Shown one piece after another: positions 22,311 through 37,001 of a stretch of DNA of 37,473 nt (positions are counted from its first letter, which is position 1; every line of letters begins with the position of its first letter). Source of the stretch: Acidobacterium sp. (GTDB lineage: Bacteria; Acidobacteriota; Terriglobia; Terriglobales; Acidobacteriaceae); NCBI GenBank assembly GCA_003166955.1, contig PMUI01000119.1, positions 1-37,473 on the forward strand, read 5' to 3'. The notes beneath the pieces are model-generated. The model saw nothing but the letters and a program-made list of their open reading frames with translations, was not told the DNA's origin and searched no databases. A program made the translations under genes and the position numbers.

Positions 22311-22333
22311 GGGTTCTCTCCTTTCTGAAACAG

Positions 22334-22360
22334 AAAAGCCTGCCGGGATGGCAGGCTTTT
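22334..22360 (-). terminator. Hairpin terminator or attenuator, leader copy B
   Basis: Perfect 11-bp stem AAAAGCCTGCC/GGCAGGCTTTT with a 5-nt loop. Read on the minus strand it lies 17 bp outside the left end of the IS and 24 bp before the start at 22310. It can end the passenger transcript coming from the IS, and before the insertion it occupied the leader of the 22310 ORF. The stem with its flanking A and T tracts could work in both directions. Confidence 0.75.
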
Positions 22361-22376
22361 TCTCGTTTTCCACTTA

Positions 22377-22384
22377 AGTTCAGT
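22377..22384. repeat. Target-site duplication, left copy
   Basis: AGTTCAGT directly abuts the left inverted repeat; the identical 8 bp follow the right inverted repeat at 25152-25159. An 8-bp duplication is the usual length for the IS1595 family. Confidence 0.9.
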
Positions 22385-22408
22385 GGTAATTATCCCCTCA
22401 GAACAAGT
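22385..22408 (+). repeat. Left terminal inverted repeat of the IS
   Basis: Begins GGTAATTATCCCCTC and matches the inward-read right end at 21 of 24 positions (differences at 13, 15 and 17). The stop codon of the two-TM gene lies 4 bp inside it. Confidence 0.9.
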
Positions 22409-22411
22409 GCG

Positions 22412-22606
22412 TCAATTCTTAAAGTGGAAGAGCAGCACCGTGACGCCTCCGCTCAATAGGCAGGCCAAGATCAATCGCTGTGTAAGATTTTCGAGATAGG
22501 CTCCGATGGATGGCAAAGGCCACCAGAGGTCAAGTTGGAAGATGTAGAGGATCGCGAGAAACATTCCCGCGAGAGCGACGAAGGTGACGGTACGTTTATG
22601 TTTCAT
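22412..22606 (-). CDS. Small two-TM membrane protein, IS passenger
   Basis: A 64-aa protein with a basic N-terminus (MKHKR), two hydrophobic helices (about residues 7-24 and 45-60) joined by a Trp/Pro-rich loop (DLWWPLPSIGAY), and an HFKN tail. No family recognised. It is the last gene of the minus-strand passenger operon, starting 4 bp after the PIN stop and ending 4 bp from the left inverted repeat. The two-helix hairpin shape recalls small toxins and holin-like peptides, but that is only an analogy. Confidence 0.6.
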   Translation of the reverse strand: MKHKRTVTFVALAGMFLAILYIFQLDLWWPLPSIGAYLENLTQRLILACLLSGGVTVLLFHFKN

Positions 22607-22610
22607 CCCG

Positions 22611-23126
22611 TTATTGAATTAGGCCGGATCGTGTTCCTTCTGGGAACAATTCGGCGCGTTTTGGCTGTGGCGGCAGGAATTCAAGAAACGTTAGGTTAAG
22701 GTGCTTTTTGCGGTTTAGCATCTGATCGTCTAGCGCATATAGGTATTGGCAGTTTAGTTCCAGCGCCGTCGCGATGTGGAAACAGTCCCATTTGCGTCGT
22801 CGATTCTGCCCAATTCTTTCCTCTTCGGTAAGATCGTCTGGCTTCATCTTTTGGATCAACTCAGCCTCCAATTTGGCCGCCATCAGCGAAATCTCGCGCG
22901 TGATCGTCTGAATCCTAGCCAATTTACTAATCTCAGCGCAAAGAGCATCGGCCCTCCCGCCTCCACGAAACGCCTGAACAGAAACTTCTTGGACGGTGAT
23001 TATGGAGGTGTAGATTTTGGCCCTGTCATGCTTCAGTTCGCGGAGAAGGGCGCGTATTGATGCAGCACTTGGTTCCCCATTGAGAATCGCGAGAAAGATC
23101 GAAGTGTCAAAGTAGCAGTCAGCCAT
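22611..23126 (-). CDS. PIN-domain nuclease, IS passenger
   Basis: A 171-aa PIN-domain protein with the acidic set Asp7 (CYFDTSIFLAIL), Glu47 (SIITVQEVSV), Asp114 (KWDCFHIATALEL) and Asp134 (YALDDQML), which binds Mg for RNA cleavage. VapC-type PIN proteins are toxins that cut tRNA or rRNA and are silenced by a small antitoxin encoded just upstream. Here the upstream neighbour, ending one base before, is a 293-aa protein instead. The insert between Glu47 and Asp114 (KMKPDDLTEEERIGQNRRR) makes it longer than ordinary VapC proteins of about 130-140 aa. It probably acts as an addiction module of the element or as an RNase of unknown role. Confidence 0.85.
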   Translation of the reverse strand: MADCYFDTSIFLAILNGEPSAASIRALLRELKHDRAKIYTSIITVQEVSVQAFRGGGRADALCAEISKLARIQTITREISLMAAKLEAELIQKMKPDDLTEEERIGQNRRRKWDCFHIATALELNCQYLYALDDQMLNRKKHLNLTFLEFLPPQPKRAELFPEGTRSGLIQ

Positions 23127-24008
23127 CTAATCTTCCTCGCGTACCTGCCTAATAAGGGTATTAAGGTCAGCGTTGAATACGTTTTTATAACTGCCGAACA
23201 GTTCGTCAAAGGCTGCCTCGTAATCGCGGTCAGTGTCCGCGACTATGGATTCCACAACGATCTTCGGACGAGCTACGCGATAGTGAACAGCGCGACCAAT
23301 AATGTGTACCTGTTTGCGAAATAGGCTGGTTGCGATCTCTATGTCGGACGGTTTGAATTGGACCCTCCATGCATCAAGATCGCTGAGAATCAGTTCTCCC
23401 CAGAAGCCCTTCTCTTGTTCGTCGTATGGATCATAGTCAACCAACTGAACAAGTTTTCCGTAAAGAGAAACACCCTCAACCTGAAATGTAGGCACTTGCA
23501 ATGCTCTCAGCGTTTCCATGCCTGCGCTGCCGAACGTAGCGGACAGTGGTTGGGGGATTCCAGGCCGATTGATTTGTACCTGAAGCTCCATCCGGTCCCG
23601 ACGTTGCACTTTCGCCACTCTAGAAATGCGCCTAAGAATACCTGGGTCCAGGTTGCGATCCGGCTCTGGCACGCCCTGTTCAGCCTCCAGCACTACAAGA
23701 GTCCGGAGTACCTCTTCGGCTGCCATCAGGCCGATGGGAATATTGGAGGTCATGGCAATCGGCATTTCCACGCTGCCCTTGCGAAAGATGGATTCCCCCG
23801 TAGCGACAGCCTCTAAGCCAAAGTCTCCCGTGGGAACCATTACCCCGCGCTCCCGCTGGATGCGCTTTCCGGCCTCTGCGATCATTTGACGCACTTCTTC
23901 GAGAACGCTGAGGACGTCTGCCAGTGGGAGTCGATGGCGATCAGCCAAGCCTTTGGTCAGCTTGACGGTGATAATCGGATCGTCGTTAAAGTTCAGTTCG
24001 TCAGCCAT
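23127..24008 (-). CDS. Unknown protein, likely partner of the PIN protein
   Basis: A 293-aa protein. The frame opens at GTG 24074, but I start at ATG 24008 (MADELNFNDD) because AGGAG lies 9 bases ahead. Domains are not recognised. An N-terminal helical part (LADRHRLPLADVLSVLEEVRQMIAEAG) is followed by a beta-rich middle with paired strands (FQVEGVSLYGKLVQLVDYDP, GFWGELILSDLDAWRVQF) and an acidic, helical C-terminus (YEAAFDELFGSYKNVFNADL). It ends directly before the PIN start, so the two are translationally linked; it may be an oversized antitoxin, or both may belong to one RNA-acting system. No catalytic motif is seen. Confidence 0.75.
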   Translation of the reverse strand: MADELNFNDDPIITVKLTKGLADRHRLPLADVLSVLEEVRQMIAEAGKRIQRERGVMVPTGDFGLEAVATGESIFRKGSVEMPIAMTSNIPIGLMAAEEVLRTLVVLEAEQGVPEPDRNLDPGILRRISRVAKVQRRDRMELQVQINRPGIPQPLSATFGSAGMETLRALQVPTFQVEGVSLYGKLVQLVDYDPYDEQEKGFWGELILSDLDAWRVQFKPSDIEIATSLFRKQVHIIGRAVHYRVARPKIVVESIVADTDRDYEAAFDELFGSYKNVFNADLNTLIRQVREED

Positions 24009-24078
24009 GGGCTGCCACTCCTGATACACTGAGAGTGGATCGTTTGACACTGGCGTTGCGAGCGCCAAGGACACACGA

Positions 24079-24219
24079 TGAAGAAGTCGCCATCAAATCC
24101 GGTTCAACCAAAGTCACACCCGTTTACGCGGGATGACTACCATACCCTTTTGCAGCGGGCGATCAATTCGCCCGCTCAGAAACCTGTCCCAAAAGCGAAA
24201 CGAACATCGGCTCGTTAGA
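24079..24219 (+). CDS. 46-aa basic protein convergent with the transposase
   Basis: A short ORF starting MKKSPSNPVQ and ending KAKRTSAR, with AAGGA 6 bases before its ATG. It has a basic N-terminus, a short acidic/aromatic helix (TRDDYHTLLQRAIN) and a basic, Pro-rich tail. It lies inside the element on the strand opposite all its other genes, and its last 57 bases overlap the 3' end of the transposase gene. It resembles nothing I can name. Its RBS and ordered composition favour a real gene, but antisense overlap with a coding sequence could mimic one. Confidence 0.5.
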
Positions 24220-25101
24220 GTCGCGCCGATTGTACCGGAAAGCATATTCGTCCAGATAGCTCTGGAGATATTTCCGGGAAACCGAGTGGTAGACTCCGCC
24301 GATCCCTCTCTTCACCAAACTCCAGAATCCCTCAATCGAATTCGTGTGTGCATCACCCATGACGTACACGTTCTGCTGATGCTGCACGCGCCGATGGACG
24401 TATCCGTGAGTCTCCAGTTTCATCCAGCCGTAGACCGGGAACTCATCGGTGTAGACCGTGCTCGATGGCAGGACACGCTCCTTGATGATTGGGAACAGCG
24501 TCTTCGCTTTCACGTCTGGCGTAACGCGAGCAATGACGCGCCCGCCGCGTTCAACCATACCGAACACTGGAGTCTTCGGGGAATCCTTCCCAGGGCGTCC
24601 GCTGTCCACGCGCTTGTGGAAGTGCTTGTTCTTGTCCTTGCCGCCAACGTACATCTCATCCGCTTCAACTGACGATCCCTCCAGTCTGATGTCTTCCGAC
24701 ATCAGGGTTCGAATCTGCTTAAACATGCGCCACGCAGTTTTGTACGTGACGCCGGTTTCGCGCTGAATCTGTTTTGCAGAGATTCCACAGCGCGTCTGGC
24801 CCATCAGATACATCGCGTGGAACCACGTCCGCAGAGACGTGCTGGACTTCTCGAAGATCGATCCCGCCATCGGGTAGATGTGATTTCCGCAGTGGTCACA
24901 GGCGAAGGCTTTCCGCCCGGTAACGGGGTAGTGCTTGCGCTCTGCCTTGCACTTGCCGCACATGGTCCGGCAGTCGGGCCAGCGCTGCTCTGCGATAAAA
25001 CGAAGGCAAGCTTCGTCGTTCGGGAACTCCGTGTCGAAATCCTTGAACGTGTATTTTTGGTATCCGGGGACGCTCTGACGCTGCTTCTTGCGTTCTTTCA
25101 T
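24163..25101 (-). CDS. IS1595-family (ISXO2-like) transposase
   Basis: A 312-aa transposase. The N-terminus has a zinc ribbon (C48, C51, C68, C71: CGKC...CDHC) as in Zn_Tnp_IS1595. A helix-turn-helix-like stretch follows (ISAKQIQRETGVTYKTAWRMF), then the ISXO2-like catalytic domain with Asp148 (VEADEMYVGG), Asp219 (VYTDEF) and Asn254-x2-Glu257 (TNSIEGFWSLVKRG), the DDNE form of the RNase-H fold. It cuts the element ends and leaves 8-bp duplications. The ATG at 25101 lies only 50 bp inside the right inverted repeat, with the promoter overlapping that repeat and almost no leader. Frame and motifs are intact. Confidence 0.95.
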   Translation of the reverse strand: MKERKKQRQSVPGYQKYTFKDFDTEFPNDEACLRFIAEQRWPDCRTMCGKCKAERKHYPVTGRKAFACDHCGNHIYPMAGSIFEKSSTSLRTWFHAMYLMGQTRCGISAKQIQRETGVTYKTAWRMFKQIRTLMSEDIRLEGSSVEADEMYVGGKDKNKHFHKRVDSGRPGKDSPKTPVFGMVERGGRVIARVTPDVKAKTLFPIIKERVLPSSTVYTDEFPVYGWMKLETHGYVHRRVQHQQNVYVMGDAHTNSIEGFWSLVKRGIGGVYHSVSRKYLQSYLDEYAFRYNRRDSNEPMFVSLLGQVSERAN

Positions 25102-25110
25102 GGCAAAAAC

Positions 25111-25139
25111 AGTATGCCATTTGTTCTACTTGTTGTCAA
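25111..25139 (-). promoter_or_regulatory. Transposase promoter overlapping the right inverted repeat
   Basis: On the minus strand TTGACA (25139-25134) is separated by 17 bp from CATACT (25116-25111), followed by ATG at 25101. The -35 lies inside the terminal inverted repeat, so transposase binding to its own end would block its promoter. The left repeat reads CTCAGA at the same place and lacks the box. Confidence 0.65.
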
Positions 25140-25151
25140 GGGATAATTACC
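25128..25151 (-). repeat. Right terminal inverted repeat of the IS
   Basis: Read inward on the minus strand it begins GGTAATTATCCCTTGAC and pairs with the left end. The direct repeat AGTTCAGT follows at 25152-25159. Confidence 0.9.
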
Positions 25152-25212
25152 AGTTCAGTATATCAGGCTGGAGGGGGTAAAACTGCCAAATATCTTTGGT
25201 GGTTTTGGCGTG
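25152..25212 (-). promoter_or_regulatory. Conserved leader/promoter element, copy B (cut by the IS)
   Basis: Read on the minus strand: CACGCCAAAACCACC, AAAGATATTTGGCAG, a C-rich spacer, CCTGATATACTGAACT, where the IS is inserted. The continuation lies at 22376 and below. The core matches 36346-36407 nearly base for base in the same order. TGATATACT has the shape of an extended -10 (TGn plus TATACT). The TSD overlaps it, so the insertion broke the promoter. Confidence 0.7.
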
Positions 25213-25336
25213 GAAGTTGTTTGGAATCAGGGGGCGTTACTTCGGTTTTTGGGGCTGGGGCTTGACAGTTTTTCGGGATTTCGGGATTTCGGGGAAGGCG
25301 GGGAGTTTTGGGAGGGACGGCGAACGTTTGAGGGGG

Positions 25337-28300
25337 TCATTCGAATCGTTCGTTTTGACGGCGTTCCGCTGCTTCCTCTTCGCGACGCATTTCGCTTAGT
25401 GCTGAATTCAGGCGAGTTCGCTCCCCGGCCACAAAGGCTGCCAAGGCCGGATCGTTGAATTCTGGGAGGCAATCGAGTAACTTTGCGTGGGCTTCCCATG
25501 CGGAAGCTTGAGATCCTGACCAGCCCGATGGCCAGAGGTGCTCTATGTAGTTCTTCATAATCGCGATTCGATCGGGGGCGCGGTCCAGCAACGCGAGCGA
25601 GATATCTTTCCATCGGGGAGCGGCTCTCTGGCGGTCTGTGGTGAACGGCACCGTGATGGAGGCGATTCGCGGATAACGGCGGGCGCTATCGACATCGCAC
25701 CACGCCAACAGAATCTCCTGTGGGATGCAATCGAGAGGCGAACCGCTGAGCTCGTCACGATCAAACAGGAAGTTGGCGTGCTCGGGTGGGGGATCGGCGA
25801 ACACAGTATTGAGAGCCACCAAAGGTTGAGCGGCAAAGAGGGCCCGGATGAGACCCCGGCCCTCGGACAGGCCGATGGCATCAAGCGTTCGCCAATCGCG
25901 AAGCCGCCCCAGCATCTCGCGGACTATATTCGCGCCTTCGGGTCCAGACAGGCAGGTTCGTGTCACCTCTTCGAGGTGGTACGACTGAACGCGGCAGCGG
26001 GCGCTGAAGTCGAAGTTTTCAAGAAGTTGCCTTCCCGCAGTTAGTAACTCTGGTGAAGCTGTGCCACCGTCGCGCCGGTTGCCTGCGAGTCTCACCCAAA
26101 CGATTTCGAAGGCGACGTCTTGGCCGCCTGGCAGCAGGGCGATCGAAGGAATCAGTCCGCAGATCATTTGATCGGTGACGGTGTCCGGCACATACGCCAG
26201 GGAACGATACTCGTCCGCGGGTGCAGAGCCGCGCTTGATTGATTGCTTCAGCCGTTCGACGCCGGCCACGTCCACGCCAGCTCGAACCTGGATGAATGGG
26301 AACCATTTATCGAAACGGGAATCCGCAAGAAGCTCATCAAGAATTCGCTCGACGAGCGCGTCGTCTGACTGCTTCAGGTTGAAGAGGTAGGAGGTAGCGA
26401 ATTGGGGCGAGCGAGTCTTTGGGTCGGCCGTGACGAACGCCGAGAGGATTTGTCTCCACAGGCCTCTATGATCTGTTGCACCTTCTACGACGCCTTTGGC
26501 GAACGAGCCGAGCGTCATCCCCTCCGATGAGTGGATCAATTCGGGCAAAAGCTCATCAAAGAGGGCATTGTCCTTTACGACAGTATTGCCCAACTCAATA
26601 CATTCCGCTTGTAATCGATCAAGTTGACTTTGAACGTCGAGGGAGCCGACGTCGTCCCAAAAATCCCGGGCGCCCCGTAGAACCAAGGCGCGGACTCGTT
26701 CTGCAAAAGATGAGGGCTGCAGTATCCGCTCAATCTCCAGAAGTCTCGCCTCCTGTTCCTGTGGCAGCGGCTCGTGGCGGAGCCTTCGGATGCTCCTGAT
26801 CGCTGTCCAGGCTTCGGGCCAGAATCGGCGCGAATGGAATTCCTGACAGATCTGTTTGATCGCGTCGAGCATGCCGACGTTAAAGAGGCCGCGTAGGTGT
26901 TCTGCTACGATCTTCCGCATGCGTGCGGATTCGTTTACCCCAAGTTTGTCGAGCTCGTTGCACGCCTGGAGCACGGAGTTGAGCCAGTGCTGGGTTTCCG
27001 CACCCGACTTCGGGTAGAAGCCATAATCGCGGGGCCTCCCACCAAAATCGAACCGTTGGGAGGAGGAGAAAGCGGAAGTCTTCAGCATTGCACCGAGGGC
27101 GCTGAACCCGAGTTCGCGCCGTTCCCGGCTGGAAGACCGCACGAGGGACTCAGCAATCGCGAGACGTTGTTCCACTGTCGCGTGAGTGCCCGAGAGAACC
27201 AAATGAAACAGGTGGGGAAAGCTGTTCTTTACATAATTTGCATAGACGGGCGACTTTTCATCTTCAATCAGATCGACGATTGCTTTGACGGCTCTGTCGA
27301 ATGTCTCGGGTTCGTACGCCAGGGATACCAACAGGCTGCGGAACTCCTCCCCTTCCAGCTGCTTGTCATTCGTTTTCAGTCGCACGATGGCTCGCTCAAT
27401 CGCGTCGAGCACCGCGAGGGGGTCCACGGGAGCAACATTCGTGAGCATCGCTCTACCGAGTTCATCCAACTGCTCCAGGTAGCGTAGCGGACCCTCTGGC
27501 GATAACCATTCAGCGACGATTCTTTGAGCCTCTAAGCTCGTGTGAAGGTAGCCCAGCCGCCTGGAGAACGACCTGAGAAGCCGGGGCGGCGCAACGGACC
27601 AGAAAGCTCGAAGGCCCGGAGGGGTGATTTCTTCAAGGGCGCGAGATGCCAGAGTATTCGCGATTGCATGTGGGAGAATCGCGCGCCAGACCCCTCGTTG
27701 CTGTAAAAGGTCCCTGCGTTTCAGTTCGGCCAAGTCGCTATTTATCGCGCGGGCATCAGCTCCGATCAGCTCCGCAAGTCTCCAGAGCTCGTCGTTCCCC
27801 TCGCCGGTTATGTCTTCGCCCTGAAACGAATAGGCCAGCGAACAGACCTGTGCTGTTCGTAAGAGAGAACTGTTCGGAGTGTGGCGCTGGTGGAAGAGTC
27901 GTTCAAAGAGTTCGACGTGCCTGAGTGCCGCAATAGATTCACCTGCCCGGACGGTGACCGCCAACGCGATGGCAACTCGGGCATTTCCTCCTGAGAATTT
28001 AGCGATCGTCTGAGCGTCGACTTGCGAGACCGTGCCAAACCGGCGCTGTAACAATTTCTCGATCAGGTCGTCGGAGGAGGGCTGCAGTTCGAAGACATCG
28101 GTGCCCTCCGGTTGATCGTCGCGTACGTCGTATTCAATGGTCAGCAGGCTCAACTTGCTCTCAGGTTGGAGACATACCGCGGAGAGGCTGTTGTGCAATT
28201 CTGGGGGACAATTGTCTACGATGAGTATGTTACGTCGACTCTGGGTGACTAGCTCAGAGGCGAGAGCGATAGGTTGAGGGGTAGGGTTATCAGATAGGTT

Positions 28301-29113
28301 TGTGTAGATCGCGAGATCGGGAGCGAGGCTGCAGTCTCCGATGCGGGCGTCGAATAGTGCTTCTGCCAGTCTCGTTTTACCCGTGCCGGAAAGGCCAACC
28401 AGGCGTACAACGCCCCCAGGGACATCAAGGGTTTTGCGGATTTCTTGAATGCCCTGAAGTGCCGAAGAGCTTCCTTGCTGACTGGCTGCCCGCTGGATGC
28501 GGAGCGAATCATCCGTCAGATACTCTGTGTTAGCAGCCTCGTTGGATGTGGACCAGTCGCCGCAGGGCTTCCAACCAGTGAACGCCCTGCCGATTTTCTT
28601 CTGGGTCCATATCGCTACGCCTGGGTGGTCCCGCACCCATGTCGCAATTCGGTTTCGGTCGTAGAAATCGAGATGGAGTCGTTCCGCGCCGGCAACGCCG
28701 TCCACAGCTTCCACCATTGCCGAGCGGCGGTCTGAAAGAAATGGGTCCGCGACTGATCCCTTCGAGCTGACGATGATGTAGGAGCCGGAGACTTTGGCAA
28801 GTTCCGATATTGCCTCCCTCAGAATCCCCTTCGGTTTCATCTCGGTAAGGATTCTTGCTCGATGCATATCCTCGGCCTTCACCTGGAATATGCAGTTCGA
28901 GCGGGCAATTGCGCCCCCGACTGTGGCACCGTCAGGAAGTGCTACGCGCACGTCTACGCCGCCGTCGGTTGCGGTCTGATTTCCGCCCCAAGTCACCGCC
29001 GAAACTGGAGATTGCCCCATGCGGCGTACTTCGGCTTCACAGAGCCGCGCGACGAGCTCCCGAAGGTCCTCGTCGTTAAGGCGCGAGATATCTTCCCCAT
29101 CGACATCGAACAT
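25337..29113 (-). CDS. Nuclease-STAND NTPase, probable Avs-like antiviral protein
   Basis: A 1,258-aa protein. Residues 1-170 look like an Mrr-type PD-(D/E)XK nuclease: Asp50-Gly-Gly-Val-Asp54, then CIFQVKA with Gln77 and Lys79. A P-loop NTPase follows, with Walker A GLSGTGKT (240-247), Walker B NILIVDN (295-301, Asp300) and FSGGNARVAIALA (372-385), typical of STAND ATPases. The remaining 800 residues are helical repeats rich in Leu, Arg and Glu, the usual sensor part. Nuclease, STAND core and long repeat sensor is the layout of Avs proteins, which recognise phage portal or terminase and then cut DNA. No sequence match to a named Avs group can be made by eye. The ATG has AAGGTG about 7 bases upstream. 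Codon use is mixed and less GC-rich, suggesting transfer; it sits alone next to the IS. Confidence 0.8.
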   Translation of the reverse strand: MFDVDGEDISRLNDEDLRELVARLCEAEVRRMGQSPVSAVTWGGNQTATDGGVDVRVALPDGATVGGAIARSNCIFQVKAEDMHRARILTEMKPKGILREAISELAKVSGSYIIVSSKGSVADPFLSDRRSAMVEAVDGVAGAERLHLDFYDRNRIATWVRDHPGVAIWTQKKIGRAFTGWKPCGDWSTSNEAANTEYLTDDSLRIQRAASQQGSSSALQGIQEIRKTLDVPGGVVRLVGLSGTGKTRLAEALFDARIGDCSLAPDLAIYTNLSDNPTPQPIALASELVTQSRRNILIVDNCPPELHNSLSAVCLQPESKLSLLTIEYDVRDDQPEGTDVFELQPSSDDLIEKLLQRRFGTVSQVDAQTIAKFSGGNARVAIALAVTVRAGESIAALRHVELFERLFHQRHTPNSSLLRTAQVCSLAYSFQGEDITGEGNDELWRLAELIGADARAINSDLAELKRRDLLQQRGVWRAILPHAIANTLASRALEEITPPGLRAFWSVAPPRLLRSFSRRLGYLHTSLEAQRIVAEWLSPEGPLRYLEQLDELGRAMLTNVAPVDPLAVLDAIERAIVRLKTNDKQLEGEEFRSLLVSLAYEPETFDRAVKAIVDLIEDEKSPVYANYVKNSFPHLFHLVLSGTHATVEQRLAIAESLVRSSSRERRELGFSALGAMLKTSAFSSSQRFDFGGRPRDYGFYPKSGAETQHWLNSVLQACNELDKLGVNESARMRKIVAEHLRGLFNVGMLDAIKQICQEFHSRRFWPEAWTAIRSIRRLRHEPLPQEQEARLLEIERILQPSSFAERVRALVLRGARDFWDDVGSLDVQSQLDRLQAECIELGNTVVKDNALFDELLPELIHSSEGMTLGSFAKGVVEGATDHRGLWRQILSAFVTADPKTRSPQFATSYLFNLKQSDDALVERILDELLADSRFDKWFPFIQVRAGVDVAGVERLKQSIKRGSAPADEYRSLAYVPDTVTDQMICGLIPSIALLPGGQDVAFEIVWVRLAGNRRDGGTASPELLTAGRQLLENFDFSARCRVQSYHLEEVTRTCLSGPEGANIVREMLGRLRDWRTLDAIGLSEGRGLIRALFAAQPLVALNTVFADPPPEHANFLFDRDELSGSPLDCIPQEILLAWCDVDSARRYPRIASITVPFTTDRQRAAPRWKDISLALLDRAPDRIAIMKNYIEHLWPSGWSGSQASAWEAHAKLLDCLPEFNDPALAAFVAGERTRLNSALSEMRREEEAAERRQNERFE

Positions 29114-29261
29114 CTCGACGCACCTTACTATCGAAGATACGCTCCTACCTGCGTACTTGGAGGTCGGGGGCTTACGTTGGGACGAGTCGTACTCTATTAG
29201 CTAAGTGAGTGCAATTGCGGGCCTACGGCAGTGCGGAAGGGCCCTGCGGGCCTGTCTTTGC

Positions 29262-29281
29262 GGCACGACTGAAGTCGTGCC
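29262..29281. repeat. REP-like palindrome
   Basis: Perfect 9-bp stem GGCACGACT/AGTCGTGCC with loop GA. Same design as the palindromes at 29373 and 36157. Confidence 0.75.
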
Positions 29282-29333
29282 CTGACACGGGGTCCGGTGC
29301 CGGAGCCGGGAGCGTGACGGGGGAAGAACCATC

Positions 29334-29394
29334 CCTCAGCGGCTAAAGCCGGATTGGCTTTGGCGTAGGCATGGCACGGCTGAAGCCGTGCCCC
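29334..29394. repeat. REP-like composite repeat
   Basis: CCTCAGCGGCTAAAGCC, a spacer, then the perfect palindrome GGCACGGCT-GA-AGCCGTGCC (29373-29392). The inverted copy at 36150-36214 has the same two parts in the same relative order. The 390 bp between the STAND gene and the sigma gene hold this unit, the lone palindrome at 29262 and the terminator at 29442. Confidence 0.75.
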
Positions 29395-29441
29395 TTCAAA
29401 GCCGGCGAGTTTTCCGCAAGCTGTGAAGCCGTGTTTAGAGG

Positions 29442-29465
29442 GGCTCGCATTCGCGAGCCGTTTTT
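29442..29465 (+). terminator. Intrinsic terminator
   Basis: 7-bp stem GGCTCGC/GCGAGCC, loop ATTC, then GTTTTT, 36 bp before the sigma-factor ATG. There is no plus-strand gene directly upstream, so it may insulate the operon from read-through or end a small transcript from the repeat region. Confidence 0.6.
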
Positions 29466-29501
29466 CGGAACTGCGCGGCTTTCAGATGCGTATCATTGCC
29501 C

Positions 29502-30314: not shown

Positions 30315-31241
30315 GTGGCGGACGAGAGCAAATTCGGGTTGCAGCCGGGCTCGGCTTCTGGTGGCGCGATGCGCTGCGAGGAGTGGGAAGCTCAGCTGAC
30401 GGATGCGCTGGACGGTCTGCTGCCGGCGTCGCAGGCGGCGGCGTTCCATCTGCACGGCGAGACGTGCCCGAAGTGCAGCGATCTGCTGGCGCATGTGAAG
30501 CAGGGGCAGGAGTGGCTGGGGTATCTGCACGACGAGCCGGAGATTCCGTGGGACCTGGTGGGGCGGATTCTGGAGAAGACGGTGGGCGCGGGCGGCGTGC
30601 CGGTGCCGCTGGTTGCTGCAGGCGCAGGCGTTGGCGCGGGCGGCGGCGCGGTGGCGATGGCGACGCCCTGGCGGCGGAGCTTCCACGAGACGCGGCTGCT
30701 GATGACGGTGGCGATGGCGTTCTTCTCGATTGCGATGACGCTGAATCTGATGGGCGTGAAGCCTGGGAATCTGCGGCTGTCGGATCTGAAGCCTTCGCAG
30801 ATTGGGAACACGATCTCGCGGCAGTTCTACGGAGCGCGGAGCTCGGTGGTGCGGTACTACGATCATCTGCGGTTTGTATATGAGCTGGAGTCGCGGACGC
30901 GGGAGCTGCGGAGGGATATTGAGACGCAGCCTCAGCCGCAGCCTCAGCAACAGAATCAGCAGAAGCAGCAGCAGACGAAGCCGGGCGATGGGAGTGCGGA
31001 AAAGCAGGGCACCGGGCACCGGGCACCGGGCTCTGAACGGGGCGCGGTGCTGAGGGCTGGAAGCTGGAAGCTGGAAGCTGGAAGCTTAGAACAAAGCACA
31101 GACAAATACGAAGAAGCAGCGGTGGTGTTGGAGTCGGTGGAAACTGGCACGTGGATTTCCCTGGGTTACTCAAGAACCGGGCTGCAGGAAGCGGTTGAAC
31201 CCGCTGGGTACGTGGAAGGAGCCTGGTATGAACTGCGTTAA
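30315..31241 (+). CDS. Zinc-finger (zf-HC2) anti-sigma factor with one TM helix
   Basis: A 308-aa protein. The N-terminal ZAS/zf-HC2 motif is visible: Cys21, then H47-x3-C51-x2-C54 (HGETCPKC). A Gly/Ala-rich linker and one TM helix (about 127-148, LLMTVAMAFFSIAMTLNLMG) put the remainder in the periplasm, where a Gln-rich coiled segment follows. It should hold the sigma factor at the membrane until a signal frees it. It starts on the GTG right after the sigma stop and overlaps the next gene by 14 bases. Residues about 231-257 are encoded by two 7-bp tandem arrays (GTGHRAPG and AGSWKLEAGS), inserted without loss of frame. Confidence 0.85.
   Translation: MADESKFGLQPGSASGGAMRCEEWEAQLTDALDGLLPASQAAAFHLHGETCPKCSDLLAHVKQGQEWLGYLHDEPEIPWDLVGRILEKTVGAGGVPVPLVAAGAGVGAGGGAVAMATPWRRSFHETRLLMTVAMAFFSIAMTLNLMGVKPGNLRLSDLKPSQIGNTISRQFYGARSSVVRYYDHLRFVYELESRTRELRRDIETQPQPQPQQQNQQKQQQTKPGDGSAEKQGTGHRAPGSERGAVLRAGSWKLEAGSLEQSTDKYEEAAVVLESVETGTWISLGYSRTGLQEAVEPAGYVEGAWYELR
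31007..31031. repeat. Heptanucleotide tandem repeat inside the anti-sigma gene
   Basis: Three units of GGGCACC plus a partial fourth, in frame, translated as GTGHRAPGS. Confidence 0.8.
31057..31084. repeat. Heptanucleotide tandem repeat inside the anti-sigma gene
   Basis: Four perfect units of CTGGAAG, translated as AGSWKLEAGS. 28 bases is not a multiple of three, so flanking changes must keep the frame. Confidence 0.8.
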
Positions 31242-32409
31242 TCATCCCGAGGCGGCGGTAACCGCCTTTTGTCAGCATTGTGGGAAAGGGTTGTGCGCGC
31301 AGTGCACGCGGGAGGTGCAGGGCAACGTGTTCTGTGAGCCTTGTCTTGCGGCGCGTGTGACGGGAGGGCCGGGAGCGGGAGTGCCCGGTGGGCCTGGAGC
31401 TTATCCAGGTTCGTATCCTGCGCCGCCGATGGGCGTGCCGAATCCTGGTACGGCGACGATTCTTGGATTTATTCCGGGTGTGGGCGCGATGTACAACGGC
31501 CAGTACATCAAGGCCATCGTGCACGTGCTGGTGTTCGTGGTGCTGATCTCGATCAGCGAGCACTACGGGCTATTTGGGATTTTTGTGGCGGCGTGGGTGC
31601 TGTATCAGGTGTTCGATGCGCACCAGACGGCGAAGGCGCGGCGGGATGGATTGCCGCTGCCGGATCCTTTTGGGCTGAACGAGCTGGGGAATGCATTCGG
31701 AGGGCATACGAGCCGGCCTTATGTGCCGCCGGTTCCTCCGGCTGGAGTGGCGCCGGGGACGCCTCCGGGATCTGGTCCTGGAGCGCCGGCCGGATTTGCG
31801 CCTGGGACGGGACCTGCTTCGGGTCAGGCGTATTCGGACTGGGCTGAGCAGGTTCGGCAGCAGGCGCATCAGTTTGGGCAGCAGAGTGCGGAGTGGGGCG
31901 AACAGCTGCGGCAGCGGATTGTGGCGGAGGCTCAGGCAGGGCGGCCTTATCAGCCATGGTCCGGCAATCCGCCGAGTTACGGACAGCCTGGGACGCCACC
32001 GCCTCCACCGGGATTTGTTCCTCCTGGATTTCCTCCGGGATTTGCAGCGGGCGCGGTTCCGCCGCCGGGGTATGTGCCGCCGAATGCGCCTCCGGGGTGG
32101 GTGCCTCCGCCGATCGAGCTGGAGCGGGCGCGCCGGGAGCCGATTGGGGCGATTGTCCTGATCCTGCTGGGCATGCTGTTTTTGTTCAACACGCTGGGAT
32201 TTTTTAACTTCGGCTGGGTGCATCACGGGTGGCCGCTGATTATTGTGGGCATTGCGGTGTACCTGCTGATGCGGAACACTGGAGGACGATTTGGGTTCGG
32301 TGGGCGGATGGGACCGCCTCCGCCGATGGGTGGCGGGCCGGGAACTCCTCCTCCGCCGGCGCCGGGGAGCGGGAATCCGCAGGAACCGCAGGCAGGAGGC
32401 GGGCGATGA
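31228..32409 (+). CDS. B-box-type zinc-finger protein with TM2-like and DUF5668-like membrane parts
   Basis: A 393-aa protein starting at ATG 31228 inside the end of the anti-sigma gene, with AAGGAG about 6 bases ahead. The first 40 residues are a B-box-like zinc finger (C3, H6, C15, C18, C23, C26, C36, C39). A hydrophobic segment (TATILGFIPGVGAMYNGQYI, then AIVHVLVFVVLISI) resembles TM2-type domains. A long Pro/Gly-rich linker follows, then a C-terminal pair of helices (GAIVLILLGMLFLFNTLGFF, WPLIIVGIAVYLL) like DUF5668 proteins. Probably anchored in the inner membrane and part of the response controlled by the sigma factor; exact role unknown. Confidence 0.8.
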   Translation: MNCVNHPEAAVTAFCQHCGKGLCAQCTREVQGNVFCEPCLAARVTGGPGAGVPGGPGAYPGSYPAPPMGVPNPGTATILGFIPGVGAMYNGQYIKAIVHVLVFVVLISISEHYGLFGIFVAAWVLYQVFDAHQTAKARRDGLPLPDPFGLNELGNAFGGHTSRPYVPPVPPAGVAPGTPPGSGPGAPAGFAPGTGPASGQAYSDWAEQVRQQAHQFGQQSAEWGEQLRQRIVAEAQAGRPYQPWSGNPPSYGQPGTPPPPPGFVPPGFPPGFAAGAVPPPGYVPPNAPPGWVPPPIELERARREPIGAIVLILLGMLFLFNTLGFFNFGWVHHGWPLIIVGIAVYLLMRNTGGRFGFGGRMGPPPPMGGGPGTPPPPAPGSGNPQEPQAGGGR

Positions 32410-32738
32410 ACCAGTACCTGTTTTTGCGGCGGATGCGGGGACCGATCATGCTGCTGACGTTCGGGATCACGGCGATTCTGGATGAGTACGCGGGGATTTC
32501 TTATTCGCACAGCTGGCCGCTGTACATCATCGTGTGGGGCCTGCTGAAGCTGGCGGAGAACGCGATTCTGGTGCAAAATCCGCCGGCGCCGGGGATGGGC
32601 TATCCGGGATATCCGAACCCGGGATATCCGGCGCCGGACGCTACGACATACACGGGCGCTATGCCAGGGGATACTACGAGTTCGACAGGGACAGTGCCGG
32701 CGCAGGATACACCGGTGCAGGACGAGGAGAGGAGGTAG
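32406..32738 (+). CDS. Small DUF5668-like membrane protein
   Basis: A 110-aa protein overlapping the previous stop (ATGA). It has two hydrophobic segments (GPIMLLTFGITAIL and WPLYIIVWGLLKL) as in DUF5668/LiaF-type membrane modules, then a repeated Gly/Tyr/Pro tail (GYPGYPNPGYPAP) and an acidic end. It is similar to the C-terminal part of the upstream protein, so the two may share an origin. Co-transcribed with the sigma operon. Confidence 0.7.
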   Translation: MNQYLFLRRMRGPIMLLTFGITAILDEYAGISYSHSWPLYIIVWGLLKLAENAILVQNPPAPGMGYPGYPNPGYPAPDATTYTGAMPGDTTSSTGTVPAQDTPVQDEERR

Positions 32739-32742
32739 AGAG

Positions 32743-34329
32743 ATGGGGACAACACCTCCATCCTGGACATCGCGGGAAGCGCGGTGGCAGGCAAAACAGG
32801 CGGCGCGGGCGCAACGGCAACAGTGGAAGGCGCAGATGCGCGCGCAGAAGGACTACTACAGGAGCTACTGGCGGGGGTGGCATCGGCCGACGTTTGTGGG
32901 GCCGCTGATCCTGCTGTCGTTTGGCGTAATCGCGCTGCTGATGTCGACGAGCAAGATGGACCCGGTGGAGTTCTGGGCGTGGTACGCGCGGTGGTGGCCG
33001 ATGCTGCTGATTGTGATGGGCGGGCTGCTGCTGGGGGAGCATTTTCTGGACTGGAACCGTCCGTGGGGCGGGCGGCGGTCGATGGGCGGGATCGTGTGGC
33101 TGGTGATCCTGATGATCGGCCTCGGGTGGGTTTCGCGGAACGGGCACCTGATGGGGCCGTTCTCGTGGGAGTTTTCCGGGGATGAGGGCGACAATTTCTG
33201 GAACTGGATGGGGGCCGAGCACGACAACGACGTGCAGATCGATCAAGTGCTGACGGCGGCCAGGCCTGCGGTGACGATCAACGATCCTGCGGGCGATGTG
33301 ACGATTACCGCGTCGTCGGATAACACGATGCATGTGCGGGCGCACGAGATGGTGCATCGCGATTCGGATACCGAGGCGCAGAAGATTTTCAATCTGTTGA
33401 AGCCGAAGGTGGACGCGAGCGGCGGCGGTGCGGTGATCACGGTGCCGGAGAAACAGGGCGCACGCGTGGACCTGACGCTGGAGCTGCCGGCGGCGGCCTT
33501 CGCGACGGTGACGGCGGGGCACGGGGATGTGACGGCGGATGGGCTGAATGGCGGCGTGCAGGTGAATGCAACGCACGGCGAGGTGAAGCTCGAGGATATT
33601 CACGGCGACGCGCAGGGGCACATCGATCACGGGGACTTCTCCGCGCATAACGTGCAGGGGCGTGTGCTGGTGGATGGGCATGGCGACGATGTGACGCTGT
33701 CGGAGATTACGGGACAGGTGACGATCAACGGGGATTTCTTCGGGGATATTCATCTGGAGCAGATCGGGTCGGACATTCACTACCACTCGAGCCAGACGAC
33801 GCTGGATATACCGCGGCTGATGGGCGCGCTGACGTTGGACAAGAGCGATCTGAGCATCGGTCAGGCGATGGGGCCGCTGCGGGTGATTGCGAAGTCGAAG
33901 GACATCGACCTGACGCAGATTGCGGGCGACGCGCACATTGAGGATTCGAACGGCGACGTGAATGTGGTGGCGACGAATCCGCTGGGCAACGTGCAGATCA
34001 CGGACCACACGGGGAACGTGATTGTGACGATGCCGGAGAATGCGAGCTTCAGCGTGACGGGCAGCACGAGCGCGGACGAAGCGGTGAGAACAGACTTTCC
34101 GCTGAAGATGTCGACCGACGGCGGGCGGCAGACGCTGGAGGGTTCGGTGGGGCACGGCGGCGTGCAGCTGCAGCTGGAGACCGAACATGGGAACCTGGAG
34201 TTGCGGAAGGGCGACAACGCTACGCTGTCGCTGACTCCGCCGAAGCCGCCGGTTCCGCCTGAGGCGCCGGGGGCGGCGAAGCACTTCAAGGCGCCGGCGG
34301 GTGCTAAGGCTGCGGAGCAGGAGCAGTAG
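32743..34329 (+). CDS. DUF4097-type beta-helix protein with membrane N-terminus
   Basis: A 528-aa protein, the last of the operon, starting 4 bp after the previous stop with GGAGG upstream. A basic, Gln-rich cytoplasmic start (ARAQRQQWKAQMRAQ) is followed by three hydrophobic helices (about 52-68, 85-98 and 113-130). From residue 170 it is a regular beta solenoid: VTINDPAGDVTITASSDN, FATVTAGHGDVTADGLNGG, VQVNATHGEVKLEDIHGD, repeating a G-D-V / A-x-V pattern as in DUF4097 (putative adhesin) domains. The tail is Pro/Ala-rich. DUF4097 proteins linked to sigma/anti-sigma pairs are thought to act in envelope stress; the ligand is unknown. Confidence 0.85.
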   Translation: MGTTPPSWTSREARWQAKQAARAQRQQWKAQMRAQKDYYRSYWRGWHRPTFVGPLILLSFGVIALLMSTSKMDPVEFWAWYARWWPMLLIVMGGLLLGEHFLDWNRPWGGRRSMGGIVWLVILMIGLGWVSRNGHLMGPFSWEFSGDEGDNFWNWMGAEHDNDVQIDQVLTAARPAVTINDPAGDVTITASSDNTMHVRAHEMVHRDSDTEAQKIFNLLKPKVDASGGGAVITVPEKQGARVDLTLELPAAAFATVTAGHGDVTADGLNGGVQVNATHGEVKLEDIHGDAQGHIDHGDFSAHNVQGRVLVDGHGDDVTLSEITGQVTINGDFFGDIHLEQIGSDIHYHSSQTTLDIPRLMGALTLDKSDLSIGQAMGPLRVIAKSKDIDLTQIAGDAHIEDSNGDVNVVATNPLGNVQITDHTGNVIVTMPENASFSVTGSTSADEAVRTDFPLKMSTDGGRQTLEGSVGHGGVQLQLETEHGNLELRKGDNATLSLTPPKPPVPPEAPGAAKHFKAPAGAKAAEQEQ

Positions 34330-34336
34330 CCTCTAG

Positions 34337-34378
34337 CTGGGAACTGGGAACTGGGAACTGGGAACTGGGAGCTGGGAG
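34337..34378. repeat. Heptanucleotide tandem repeat
   Basis: Six units of CTGGGAR (four CTGGGAA, two CTGGGAG), beginning 8 bp after the DUF4097 stop. Confidence 0.85.
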
Positions 34379-34390
34379 CAGAAGCCTGTG

Positions 34391-34407
34391 GCCGGTAGCC
34401 GGTAGCG
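34391..34407. repeat. Short heptanucleotide repeat
   Basis: Two units of GCCGGTA and a partial third, next to the larger array at 34337. Confidence 0.6.
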
Positions 34408-34476
34408 AAAAGCGGTCGGCGGCCGGCAGGCGACTCCCCCATCCGTGGTTTCAGGAACCGCGCCGAGAACAGCGTT

Positions 34477-35006
34477 ATGCTGAAAGCCATCATGTTCCGG
34501 CGACTCTCAGCCGCGCTCGTTTTTGCTCTCCTGGCTGCTTCTCCGCTCCTGGCTCAGCACCCTCCGCTGTCTCTCTGCCTCGTGCAAACTAAGCCCGATG
34601 CGGCGACACAGTACGACCCCTCTGCCGGTAGCTGGGCCATTGAGCTGGACAAGCTGCTCTCTGCACAAAAACTGAGGAGTGGTGTGCCGCTGCGGATTAC
34701 GGTCCTCGCTGCTTCGGTCGAGAAGGACGTGCTGCCTGGGTCCGCCGCCTGCAGTGTCCCTACGTTGTTCAGCTGTCGTACCAGGGCAGGCTTTCCTCCA
34801 GGGGGCGTAAGGTGGACTATGACTACGAAGACAGCCTCCTCTTCTCCCTGTGGAACGGCCCCACCGGGAAGGTCATCGCCCGCGGCGCATCGCTTATCCG
34901 CCCAATCCGCGGGCAGGACCGCCTGCCTCCCAGCCTGGTCTCAGAGCCGTTCCCCTGCACCGCCCTCACTCAACAAATCATGAAGCGCCTGAACAAACTC
35001 CCGTGA
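34477..35006 (+). pseudogene. Secreted protein gene with a single frameshift
   Basis: Frame 1 gives a signal peptide (MFRRLSAALVFALLAASPLLA) and a sensible start (LCLVQTKPDAATQYDPSAGS) up to KDVLP near 34737, then turns into Pro/Ser/Arg-rich nonsense. Frame 3 from 34737 continues coherently: WVRRLQCPYVVQLSYQG, then VDYDYEDSLLFSLWNGPTGK and a stop at 35006. Joined, the two halves give about 176 aa. One base appears to be lost near 34735-34737 (or a sequencing error). The protein family is not recognised. If translated as it stands, the product would be 168 aa with an aberrant C-terminus. Confidence 0.7.
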
Positions 35007-35099
35007 TTGATTCGGACGAACCGCACCCGACCAACAACTCACTCTTCGCCCAGACGCATTCAGCACGAGTGCGAGGGCGGGTCCGCTTCAGTGGCTGGC

Positions 35100-35792
35100 T
35101 TACGGTTTTGTGACGGGGACGGTTGTGACGTCAACGCCGTTGAGGCGGACTTTGGTGAAGGTGACGGTGGCGAGTCCGGTGGCATCGTGGGCGCAGACGC
35201 CGATGCCGAGGTAGACGGGATCACGCAGGGCGATGTCGATGTGGGCGAAGGGATGGAGCTGCCCGGTGCGGTCCGAGGCATGCGCTGTGAAGCGATTGCC
35301 CTGGCGCACGATGCTGATGGTCCCGAGGGATGGGGGCGCGGTGGCGTCTTGGGTGATGGCGCCCTGGGAGGCTCGCCACTGCAGCGTGACATGGCCGTCG
35401 GCGTGGATGGCGACGTCGGCGTAGGGTGAGTCGGGGTCGAGGGACTGGCGGAAGATGAGGACGGCCTTTTCGTTGGGCGGATGGGTGCCGGGCGGGAAGA
35501 CGATGGTGGCGGTGAGAGAAGCGTCGCCGGTGTAGGGGCGCCATGCGAAGTGGAAGGCGTCGGCGGCGCCCCACATGTCGGCTCCGCCGCCGGCGAGCTC
35601 GTAGGTTTGGGTTGCGGGGTTGTAAGTGGTAGAGCCTGGTTGGGTGATGCCGATGTCGGTGGATTGGGTGAAGAGGCCGATCGGGGGCGGGGCTTCGTGC
35701 GGGGCGCCGGATTGCGCCGCGACGGCAACGGCTGCTGCGATGACTGCGGCGGCGAGTGTGAGAGTCGCGAAGAACGAGGAAGATTTCGACAT
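35100..35792 (-). CDS. Secreted beta-sandwich (DUF1349-like) protein
   Basis: A 230-aa protein with a signal peptide (MSKSSSFFATLTLAAAVIAAAVAVAAQ). The mature part reads as a concanavalin-like sandwich: IGITQPGSTTYNPATQTYELAGGG, FHFAWRPYTGDASLTATIVF, EKAVLIFRQSLDPDSPYADV, GHVTLQWRASQG, YLGIGVCAHD, VTFTKVRLN. This is the wording of DUF1349-like domains, here found alone; in relatives the domain precedes TolB-type propellers. It could bind carbohydrate; no catalytic residues can be assigned. ATG 35792 starts the signal peptide; GTG 35801 or TTG 35807 are alternatives. Confidence 0.75.
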   Translation of the reverse strand: MSKSSSFFATLTLAAAVIAAAVAVAAQSGAPHEAPPPIGLFTQSTDIGITQPGSTTYNPATQTYELAGGGADMWGAADAFHFAWRPYTGDASLTATIVFPPGTHPPNEKAVLIFRQSLDPDSPYADVAIHADGHVTLQWRASQGAITQDATAPPSLGTISIVRQGNRFTAHASDRTGQLHPFAHIDIALRDPVYLGIGVCAHDATGLATVTFTKVRLNGVDVTTVPVTKP

Positions 35793-36149
35793 GGCGATCA
35801 CACGCAACGATACTCTGTCGGGCTCCGATAGGACTGATCTCTTTCAAAGTGGGAAAAGGCAGTACTTTCGGGTTGAGCACTCCGTCCTCATTTTCGCCCT
35901 ACACGGAATAACCGCGGAAGCCCTCAGTCCAGCAGCCGTCTCCCTTTCCCCCGCCTCGACGTAGGCCCGGGTAGTCAAAAAACGCCATCTGATCAGAGGT
36001 TTCTTGGCAAGTGTGTCAGCTTATTAATCGACTAGTTAACATGCATGGCTTTGCCCCACCGCCGCCCCGGTCGAATCAACCACTTGCTGAGGGCTTGACC
36101 CGCTCTTTCGCCACCCGTCCAGCTTCAGGATGAGCACGGTAAGGCCGTT

Positions 36150-36214
36150 GTATCAGGGCACGAGTTCACTCGTGCCGTAACCCCGCGAACTCAATCCGGG
36201 CTTTAGCCCCTGAG
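36150..36214. repeat. REP-like composite repeat, inverted copy
   Basis: Palindrome GGCACGAGT-TC-ACTCGTGCC (36157-36176) and GGGCTTTAGCCCCTGA (36198-36213); read on the minus strand they give the same two parts as at 29334-29394. The rest of the gene-free stretch 35793-36345 is AT-rich near its end and holds a small imperfect inverted repeat, AGTCCAAAG/CTTTGACT (about 36311-36334). Confidence 0.7.
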
Positions 36215-36345
36215 TACCGAAGGCCTCGGCGGCTTAACTACAGCCACTTCCCGATGAAAAACGTACGATATCTGCCGAGTGTCCAGAATTTGTCAAGCTT
36301 TTGTGGAAAAGTCCAAAGTAATGACCTTTGACTTAGCATGACTTA

Positions 36346-36407
36346 CACGCCAAAACCACAAAAGATATTTGGCAGTTTAATTCTCTCAACCTGATATTCT
36401 GAACTTA
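36346..36407 (+). promoter_or_regulatory. Conserved leader/promoter element, copy A
   Basis: CACGCCAAAACCACA, AAAGATATTTGGCAG, a spacer, CCTGATATTCTGAACTTA. It matches copy B (25212-25152 minus strand) nearly throughout. TGATATTCT (36392-36400) looks like an extended -10, placing the transcript start near 36407. The conserved upstream box may bind a regulator or alternative sigma factor. Confidence 0.65.
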
Positions 36408-36424
36408 TAGAGTAGAGAAAGAAG

Positions 36425-36459
36425 AAAGCTCCGTCCTCACCGGCGGGGCTTTTGCTTTT
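36425..36459 (+). terminator. Terminator-like hairpin in the leader, copy A
   Basis: 9-bp stem AAAGCTCCG/CGGGGCTTT (one G-T pair), loop 10 nt, then TGCTTTT. It lies between the predicted promoter and the ribosome site of the zinc-motif gene, so it would either make a short RNA of about 50 nt or act as an attenuator. Confidence 0.65.
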
Positions 36460-36470
36460 GGAGAGTCATG

Positions 36471-37001
36471 ATGCAGCAGCACGAAAGCCAGCAAGCGAAT
36501 TTCGAAGGCGAGCAGACCAACCGCGGCGGGGCGGCGCCGGAGCACCGGCGCTGCCAGTACATCAAAGCCGACGGGAAGGGGTGCCGCGACTGGGCCGTTC
36601 GCGGCCAGGAGTTTTGTTACCGGCACGGCGTCTTCCTGCACGCCGGGCGGGGAATCGATGTGCCGCTGCTCGAGGACGAGGCCTCCATCGTGCTGGTGCT
36701 GTCGGAAACGCTGCGCGCCGTGGCCCAGGGGACCATTGCGTTGAAGAGCGGAAGCCTGCTGCTGGAGGGCTGCCGCCTCGCGCACACCATGCAGATGGAG
36801 AGGGTTAGGGCGGCGAACGCCGAACGCAGCCGCAAGCGGACGCGCGTCCGCGAGGACGAGGTTGTTGAGGAAAGGCAGGAGCCGGAAGCAGGAAGCCGGA
36901 AGCAGGAAGCTCGGGGGAGAATCGGGAGTGCGGTGCCCGGTGCCCGGAACCCGGTGCCCAATCTTTCCGCGATTTGGAAAAGAACTGGGCCAGGGACCTA
37001 A
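36471..37001 (+). CDS. Zinc-motif protein (C-x9-C-x10-C-x2-H), frame altered by repeats
   Basis: A 176-aa protein starting at ATG 36471 (GGAG 7 bases ahead; ATG 36468 is too close). After a Gln-rich start, residues 28-52 carry Cys28-x9-Cys38-x10-Cys49-x2-His52 (RRCQYIKADGKGC, then CYRHG), the same spacing as the plant WRC zinc motif and similar to small motifs in phage proteins. A helical region follows (LVLSETLRAVAQGTIALKSG). From memory, Acidobacteria carry many paralogs of such genes. After about residue 135 two 7-bp arrays replace the original sequence and the frame ends at 37001, while frame 2 stays coherent (RDLEKNWARDLSNVE, NRFDPRYEETGEGVLAAQ) to a stop at 37129. The ancestral protein was probably about 190-210 aa. 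Confidence 0.7.
   Translation: MQQHESQQANFEGEQTNRGGAAPEHRRCQYIKADGKGCRDWAVRGQEFCYRHGVFLHAGRGIDVPLLEDEASIVLVLSETLRAVAQGTIALKSGSLLLEGCRLAHTMQMERVRAANAERSRKRTRVREDEVVEERQEPEAGSRKQEARGRIGSAVPGARNPVPNLSAIWKRTGPGT
36876..36910. repeat. Heptanucleotide tandem repeat inside the zinc-motif gene
   Basis: Five units of the type MGGAAGC (CAGGAGC, CGGAAGC, AGGAAGC, CGGAAGC, AGGAAGC), 35 bases, not a multiple of three. Confidence 0.8.
36931..36958. repeat. Heptanucleotide tandem repeat inside the zinc-motif gene
   Basis: Four units of CGGTGCC (one variant CGGAACC), 28 bases. Together with the array at 36876 it marks the point where the coding frame changes. Confidence 0.8.

Follow-up and report, generated by a model that had tools for sequence, protein, structure and literature searches.

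A dispersed promoter-like leader with a terminator-like hairpin in an Acidobacterium genome and its congeners

Two leaders in one contig

The window, by which we mean the whole stretch of 37,473 nucleotides that was analysed, is contig 14 of a 142-contig, 5.41-Mb Acidobacterium genome and carries two copies of a leader, one intact and one interrupted by an insertion (Table 1). The insertion is flanked by the 8-bp duplication AGTTCAGT (22377–22384 and 25152–25159). Its transposase (24163–25101, minus strand) matches the Pfam family DDE_Tnp_IS1595 (E = 2.1e-44), Zn_ribbon_IS1595 is matched as well (E = 1.8e-8), and passenger frames inside the element include one for a PIN-domain protein (22611–23126, minus strand). 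Target duplications of 8 bp and inverted ends are features of IS1595 elements; the insertion has both and is an IS1595-type element.

The insertion sits in the −10/start region of the interrupted leader. Joining the flanks in silico gives a leader that aligns with a sister copy elsewhere in the genome (C16:44333) through promoter, hairpin, ribosome-binding site and ATG, and whose boxes recur in the same order at 36287–36459. This bears out the initial annotation, which had proposed that healing the insertion recreates a leader and whose coordinates and boxes were correct. The interrupted copy has TTGGCA at 25189–25184 and TATACT at 25162–25157, with a spacer of 21, and its hairpin (GCCTGCC-ATCCC-GGCAGGC, 22356–22338) has a T-run. 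In the intact copy, TGTCAAG lies at 36291–36297, TTGGCA at 36369–36374, TG at 36392–36393 and TATTCT at 36395–36400, with a spacer of 20. The predicted ends of the short RNA agree with those given earlier, and over 33 copies the predicted length ranges from 41 to 76 (median, 44).

A small gene had been assigned to each of the two leaders, an assignment that stands for one of them. The Cys/His frame is the only protein gene behind either leader of the window, and the C-terminal part of its product is out of frame relative to three paralogues. The minus-strand frame from 22310 (21858–22373) was rejected as a gene: the sister copy has in-frame stops, and the differences between the two fall 8/7/6 over the codon positions (57 codons).

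Table 1 Features of the two leaders and the insertion in the window
Feature	Position	Strand	Basis or detail
IS1595-type insertion	22385–25151		2,767 bp; ends GGTAATTATCCC
Interrupted leader, promoter block from TGTCAAG box to extended −10	25153–25271	−	R1 match, 91.0 bits, E = 1.6e-25
Rest of interrupted leader, purine-rich stretch and terminator-like hairpin	22337–22376	−	Alignment to sister C16:44333, itself with a detected hairpin
Non-coding body behind interrupted leader	22040–22310	−	Comparison with sister C16:44333; far limit approximate, where likeness to the sister fades
Intact leader, promoter block	36287–36405	+	R1 match, 99.8 bits, E = 2.9e-28
Terminator-like hairpin	36428–36459	+	Stem GCTCCGTC/GGCGGGGC at 36428–36449, loop CTCACC, T-run TTTTGCTTTT to 36459
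Predicted short RNA	36407–36459	+	Putative start 7 bases past −10, putative end in T-run
Gene for small Cys/His protein (C-x9-C-x10-C-x2-H)	36468–37001	+	RBS-like GGAG at 36460

Spread and architecture of the leader

A 30-base pattern of two boxes occurs 12 times in the genome at up to 3 mismatches, and its reversed control does not occur. We built a sequence-only model, R1, from 24 copies of this genome; it yields 44 matches there at E 0.01 (43 of at least 50 bits and one partial), among which the 24 seeds match by construction. Each of 11 other genomes of the genus, none of which supplied seeds, has 6–75 matches, and the leader is present in all 12 genus genomes searched, this one included. 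Outside the genus, a single weak match (E = 0.008) was found in one of 29 relatives. This search of 40 relatives used stricter filters and scored 88 candidates per genome, with which the high counts may be underestimates. We also scored 12 candidates in each of 299 genomes sampled evenly over the class; five besides our own have weak R1 matches, most of which (six, the best of 31 bits) fall in one genome. Eleven of these weaker places were read by eye and have promoter text of a similar kind, three of them preceding Cys/His genes. The repeated unit of promoter and terminator that had been proposed from the two window copies is thus found many times over, in this genome and in its congeners. 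Searches with the exact promoter pattern returned ten stretches of named genomes, of which R1 recognizes two as full copies, both from Acidobacterium sp. isolate palsa records, and three others as partial (about 15 bits). The same pattern has no matches in viral contigs, which is a weak test of a phage origin.

Four of the 43 leaders in this genome are cut by insertions, all in the −10/start region. The leader on contig C30 is cut at the same octamer position by an element that sequence comparison, without a Pfam scan, relates to the IS1595-type element of the window, and those on C108 and C123 by two other elements, for which 8-bp duplications were likewise read by eye. Given that the survey covered insertions in the −10/start region only, the leader is not yet a proven insertion hot spot.

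Text conserved over 80 distinct copies includes TGTCAAG, CCaAAgTAat, TgAtTnca, ACTTaCacgcCA, AAgAtATTTGGCAG and TGgTATtCT. The spacer between TTGGCA and TATNCT is 20 bp in 75 of 82 copies and 21 bp in six, with one unmatched; a spacer of 20 is long for the −35 and −10 elements of an ordinary promoter. Within the 20-bp spacer, a dyad CAGGTT-N9-AACCTG is 65% complementary over 78 copies (6–36% at shifted positions), a figure that follows from the consensus and carries no covariation test. Among the 79 copies with a TGTCAA box match, the distance from TGTCAA to TTGGC is 77–79 bp in 71 and 67–69 bp in eight, with none between, so that the two spacing classes differ by one turn of DNA. The shorter class comprises eight copies, some of them related, and the bases absent from it are missing in at least two different places as read by eye. 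Because the spacing of the boxes steps by 10 bp, we infer that a protein binds the upstream boxes, from TGTCAAG to ACTTACACGCC, on one face of the helix.

Downstream of the promoter, a terminator-like hairpin lies within 140 bases in 36 of the 39 uninterrupted copies of this genome (43 minus the four cut by insertions) and within 60 bases in 33, as compared with 11 of 780 dinucleotide shuffles and 15 of 716 random windows. The detector used for these counts lets the stem stop at A/T runs, and the controls were rerun with it; an earlier version gave 26 of 39, 10 of 780 shuffles and 20 of 690 random windows. In relatives, 32 of the 39 copies examined have the hairpin and 7 are without it by the same rule, with controls from our own genome only. 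The 33 copies of this genome with a hairpin within 60 bases have 18 distinct 5′ arms. All 198 of 198 pairs are formed by construction, as the hairpins were selected, and the evidence lies in their presence relative to the controls together with the distinct arms; on these grounds the earlier observation that the arms change and the pairing is kept holds for the family. The hairpin begins 18–22 bases past the end of the leader in 28 of 36 copies here and in 21 of 32 from relatives, and the 5′ segment of the predicted RNA is about 90% purine (29 copies of this genome measured).

In gene-bearing copies, the terminator-like hairpin stands between promoter and gene, an arrangement that would also suit an attenuator or riboswitch of the classical type, whose growing transcript folds into either a terminator or an antiterminator. 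The initial annotation had offered attenuation as one reading, and it is not supported where it depends on alternative RNA structures: the longest pairing between the 5′ segment and the 5′ arm averages 3.3 bases (2.9 when shuffled) and reaches at least five in only 1 of 33 copies, in none of which is an RNA antiterminator visible by this pairing. Rfam gives no match in the window at curated thresholds, and at E up to 1 over 14 loci the hairpins have only sub-threshold matches, to istR, AgrB, BASRCI153 and BSnc120 (E = 0.1–0.75). We therefore regard a classical attenuator or riboswitch as highly improbable. With pairing so close to that of shuffled sequence, the RNA would seem to terminate by default and to extend past the hairpin only with the help of a protein or by simple leakage.

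Genes and bodies behind the leaders

With genes called by a custom gene finder, 9 of the 43 leaders of this genome precede a gene for a Cys/His, zinc-finger-like protein and two precede predicted genes of another sort that share the leader's strand (on C61 a long gene at +149, at C23:79849 a short gene at +130). Behind another 24, the first 365 bases or more are free of predicted genes; the remainder are the four cut by insertions, three that reach the contig end without a gene and one with a convergent gene at +111. The proposal that the unit is attached to different small genes consequently applies to a minority of copies and not to the gene-less 24.

Conversely, nine of the 11 Cys/His loci of this genome lie behind a leader, and one of the two exceptions starts at base 39 of its contig. 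From 56 Cys/His matches in genus relatives, 19 loci were fetched; a leader is matched, in full or in part, no more than 1.5 kb away from 14 of them, and the other five have no such match. In six pairs of four paralogues, dN/dS is 0.15–0.30 and differences fall mostly in third positions; judged by these substitutions, the gene is under purifying selection. At E 1e-6 the family is found in 22 of 297 genomes across the phylum, 21 of which belong to the same taxonomic family as ours. Its cysteines and histidine are invariant by construction, as members were picked by the motif and 5 of 44 were omitted from the alignment. Among 39 proteins, there are weak Pfam matches to zf-primase (six), DUF5763 (four), WRC (three) and zf-C3Hc3H (one), all of which we take to be fingers of C-C-C-H type. 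The best E-values are 0.0012 for DUF5763, 0.011 for zf-C3Hc3H and 0.043 for zf-primase, and the window protein scores 13 bits against zf-primase, below the cut-off of 28.8. Structure gives no significant match: the AlphaFold model (mean pLDDT, 88.7) has no Foldseek match at E ≤ 0.001 in the PDB or in viral models, and the best PDB sequence match has an E of 0.64. PADLOC gives no defence-system match at E 0.01 among the 39 proteins.

The near-constant position of the hairpin, the purine-rich 5′ segment and the 24 copies without a predicted gene nearby would fit a multicopy family of small-RNA genes, in which the constant 5′ end acts in trans, the hairpin is a mere terminator and the genes are incidental. 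A small RNA is a possible product of these loci. As an account of the whole family we think this somewhat unlikely, because nine of 11 Cys/His loci behind a leader are too many to be incidental and because conservation is about as high in the upstream DNA boxes as in the part that would be transcribed.

Gene-less bodies are of several kinds. In class B bodies, the palindromic unit GTCAAACTCGGCCGAGT repeats every 21 bp; its first 16 bases have 45 matches in the genome at up to 2 mismatches (control, five). One frame stays open through these bodies, and they were considered as protein genes and rejected: dN/dS in that frame is 0.93–1.03 in three pairs, with differences of 21/21/19, 13/13/6 and 24/20/17 over the codon positions. 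In one of the three pairs, other frames have dN/dS down to 0.56–0.58. Another kind of body has a 25-base box that occurs 22 times in the genome, 15 times within 620 bases downstream of a same-strand leader and seven times elsewhere, and the interrupted copy in the window, with its close sister, represents a third; the coding tests took in two kinds. Several bodies finish near a G-run such as GGGGGGAGGGGG as read by eye; in other genera the run directly precedes the ATG of the Cys/His gene or stands close to a convergent stop. In this genome, 24 copies were listed as having a convergent stop, and only 10 of them show a run, at irregular distance. Some of the gene-less copies may be decayed remains.

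The leader is, by the custom gene finder, a dispersed multicopy intergenic repeat, as are MITE and Correia-type repeats. In the neighbourhoods of trxB and gatB, some congeners have the unit and others lack it. Over 22 loci scanned, several of which end early at contig ends, R1 matches at gatB in our genome and G011 and at trxB in our genome and G010; by eye, remains of body or hairpin are visible at gatB in G005 and G006 and at trxB in G006 and G009. At trxB and gatB, alignment of the flanks outside the genes is too poor to show exactly where the unit ends. From this dispersal and locus-specific presence and absence, mobility of the unit can be inferred.

A selfish non-autonomous element, carrying a promoter and a terminator by chance in its left end and conserved through recent copying and the needs of transposition rather than host regulation, would explain several of these observations. 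Besides the presence and absence at single loci, copy number varies from 6 to 75 between congeners, and for most of the 28 loci that were compared the likeness between copies ends close to where the leader starts. Two copies differ by the presence of a gene: C86 consists of leader, hairpin, Cys/His gene and class B array and C39:12527 of leader, hairpin and array, with 73% identity over 180 columns of leader, 82% over 304 columns of array, and 531 as against 37 bases between. Nevertheless, a purely selfish origin appears doubtful to us. Neither terminal inverted repeats nor a target duplication of the unit was seen by eye (there was no formal search), and no transposase of its own was found. 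That the hairpin arms change and that the box spacing steps by 10 bp both suggest selection on function, and the bodies at the 3′ end of trxB in G000 and G010 are 68% alike across 203 bases, too little for every copy to be recent.

A proposed gene-optional transcription unit

The reading that we favour, and to which we give about an even chance, is that of a dispersed, gene-optional transcription unit of one genus of Acidobacteriota, with a protein-bound promoter and a terminator that throttles read-through. A regulator would sit on the fixed upstream boxes, which take up about 80 bp, and control a family of like promoters. Each strong-looking promoter would start a purine-rich RNA of about 45 nt that an intrinsic terminator ends. 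In gene-bearing copies a fraction of transcription would read through the hairpin and give the small Cys/His protein, and in gene-less copies transcription would stop before the array. The terminator would shield host neighbours from a dispersed strong promoter, and the units would spread by copying. Promoter activity, binding of the upstream boxes, throttling or insulation by the terminator and spread by copying are all proposed here from sequence.

Each part of such a unit has known counterparts, namely dispersed repeats that bear promoters, multicopy small RNAs and promoter-proximal terminators. Correia/NEMIS and similar small bacterial repeats are described as dispersed non-autonomous units of less than 200 bp that do not code for protein, the Correia elements having terminal inverted repeats and a target duplication (PMC2229807). 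They share with the leader unit dispersed copies, putative promoters inside and the lack of a transposase of their own, and they contain a site for a host factor (IHF) where the leader has putative protein-bound boxes; by contrast, the leader has no terminal repeats that we could see, a conserved terminator-like hairpin after the promoter and, in some copies, a selected gene (PMC2229807). Multicopy small-RNA families such as LhrC of Listeria are likewise described as several copies of one small-RNA gene in a genome, whereas the leader unit reaches 75 copies, has no conserved hairpin sequence and is linked to a protein gene family, and its RNA is a prediction (PMC4132741). Premature terminators and transcription attenuators also place a terminator between promoter and gene, and the leader departs from them in having no visible alternative RNA structure and many copies without a gene to control (PMC2965389). 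Among the matches listed in the literature searched, which lay largely outside subscription journals, we found no description of this leader family. What appears to be new is that such parts are combined, on this scale, and linked to a protein family that occurs for the most part in a single bacterial family.

For a genus of the little-studied Acidobacteriota, these leaders supply several dozen natural promoters that resemble one another closely and have terminators downstream, so that the architecture of promoters, their helical phasing and the evolution of terminators can be studied side by side inside one genome. They also link a zinc-finger-like family that is uncharacterised, and that in the sample searched was found almost only in one bacterial family, to defined DNA sites, and its function can thereby be put to a direct test.

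We can extend the favoured reading to a self-propagating regulon, a speculative and distinctly improbable step, in which the Cys/His family and the DNA on which it acts would travel as one unit. The protein would bind either the fixed upstream boxes or the 21-bp palindromic arrays, both in its own copy and in gene-less ones, and different genera of the bacterial family would carry their own versions. If so, each unit that lands would bring one and the same network a further promoter and binding array and, at times, a further regulator.

Insertions at the −10/start region of leaders

Four leaders of the genome, those in the window and on contigs C30, C108 and C123, are interrupted no more than a few bases from the −10/start region; each of the inserted elements is accompanied by 8-bp duplications. 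The same octamer position was hit in two of the four (the window and C30), and the elements possibly have a target preference at this region. The IS1595-type element in the window carries passenger frames: one encodes a protein with a PIN domain (PIN, E = 5.2e-13), and another, of 315 amino acids, matched no family above the cut-off.

Coordinates of leaders, genes and elements discussed here (C, contigs of the genome; L, a locus from another genus)
Feature	Position	Detail
IS1595-type element	window 22385-25151	interrupts leader
Passenger frames	window 22611-24074	
Cys/His gene	window 36468-37001	
Partial leader match	C34:121340-121407	model 4-72, 21.7 bits
Leader	C39:46647-46765	enlarged hairpin
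Leader	C61:181781-181899	long frame at +149
Leader	C23:79849-79957	short frame at +130
Acido-Lenti-1 RNA	L198:1372-1419	RF01687, 50.4 bits

Unusual leaders and the Cys/His gene of the window

A full copy follows approximately 0.9 kb downstream of the partial match on C34, which is perhaps another broken leader. Downstream of the C39 leader, the hairpin is enlarged because a longer inverted repeat is nested within it. The leaders on C61 and C23 are each followed by a predicted gene that is not of the Cys/His kind. The Cys/His gene of the window, a small zinc-finger-like protein gene, stops early; compared with three paralogues that have a conserved C terminus in common, its 3′ portion lies in a different reading frame.

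Regions near Cys/His genes in other genera

By eye, a recurring text, CTAAgT..TTGA.., was found in other genera ahead of Cys/His genes or close to convergent gene ends, frequently closed by a G-run (for example, GGGGGGAGGGGG). The loci concerned are L185, L186, L192, L193, L195, L197, L198, L222-L225, L227, L230 and L231. At L198, an Acido-Lenti-1 RNA (Rfam) lies immediately 3′ of the Cys/His gene.
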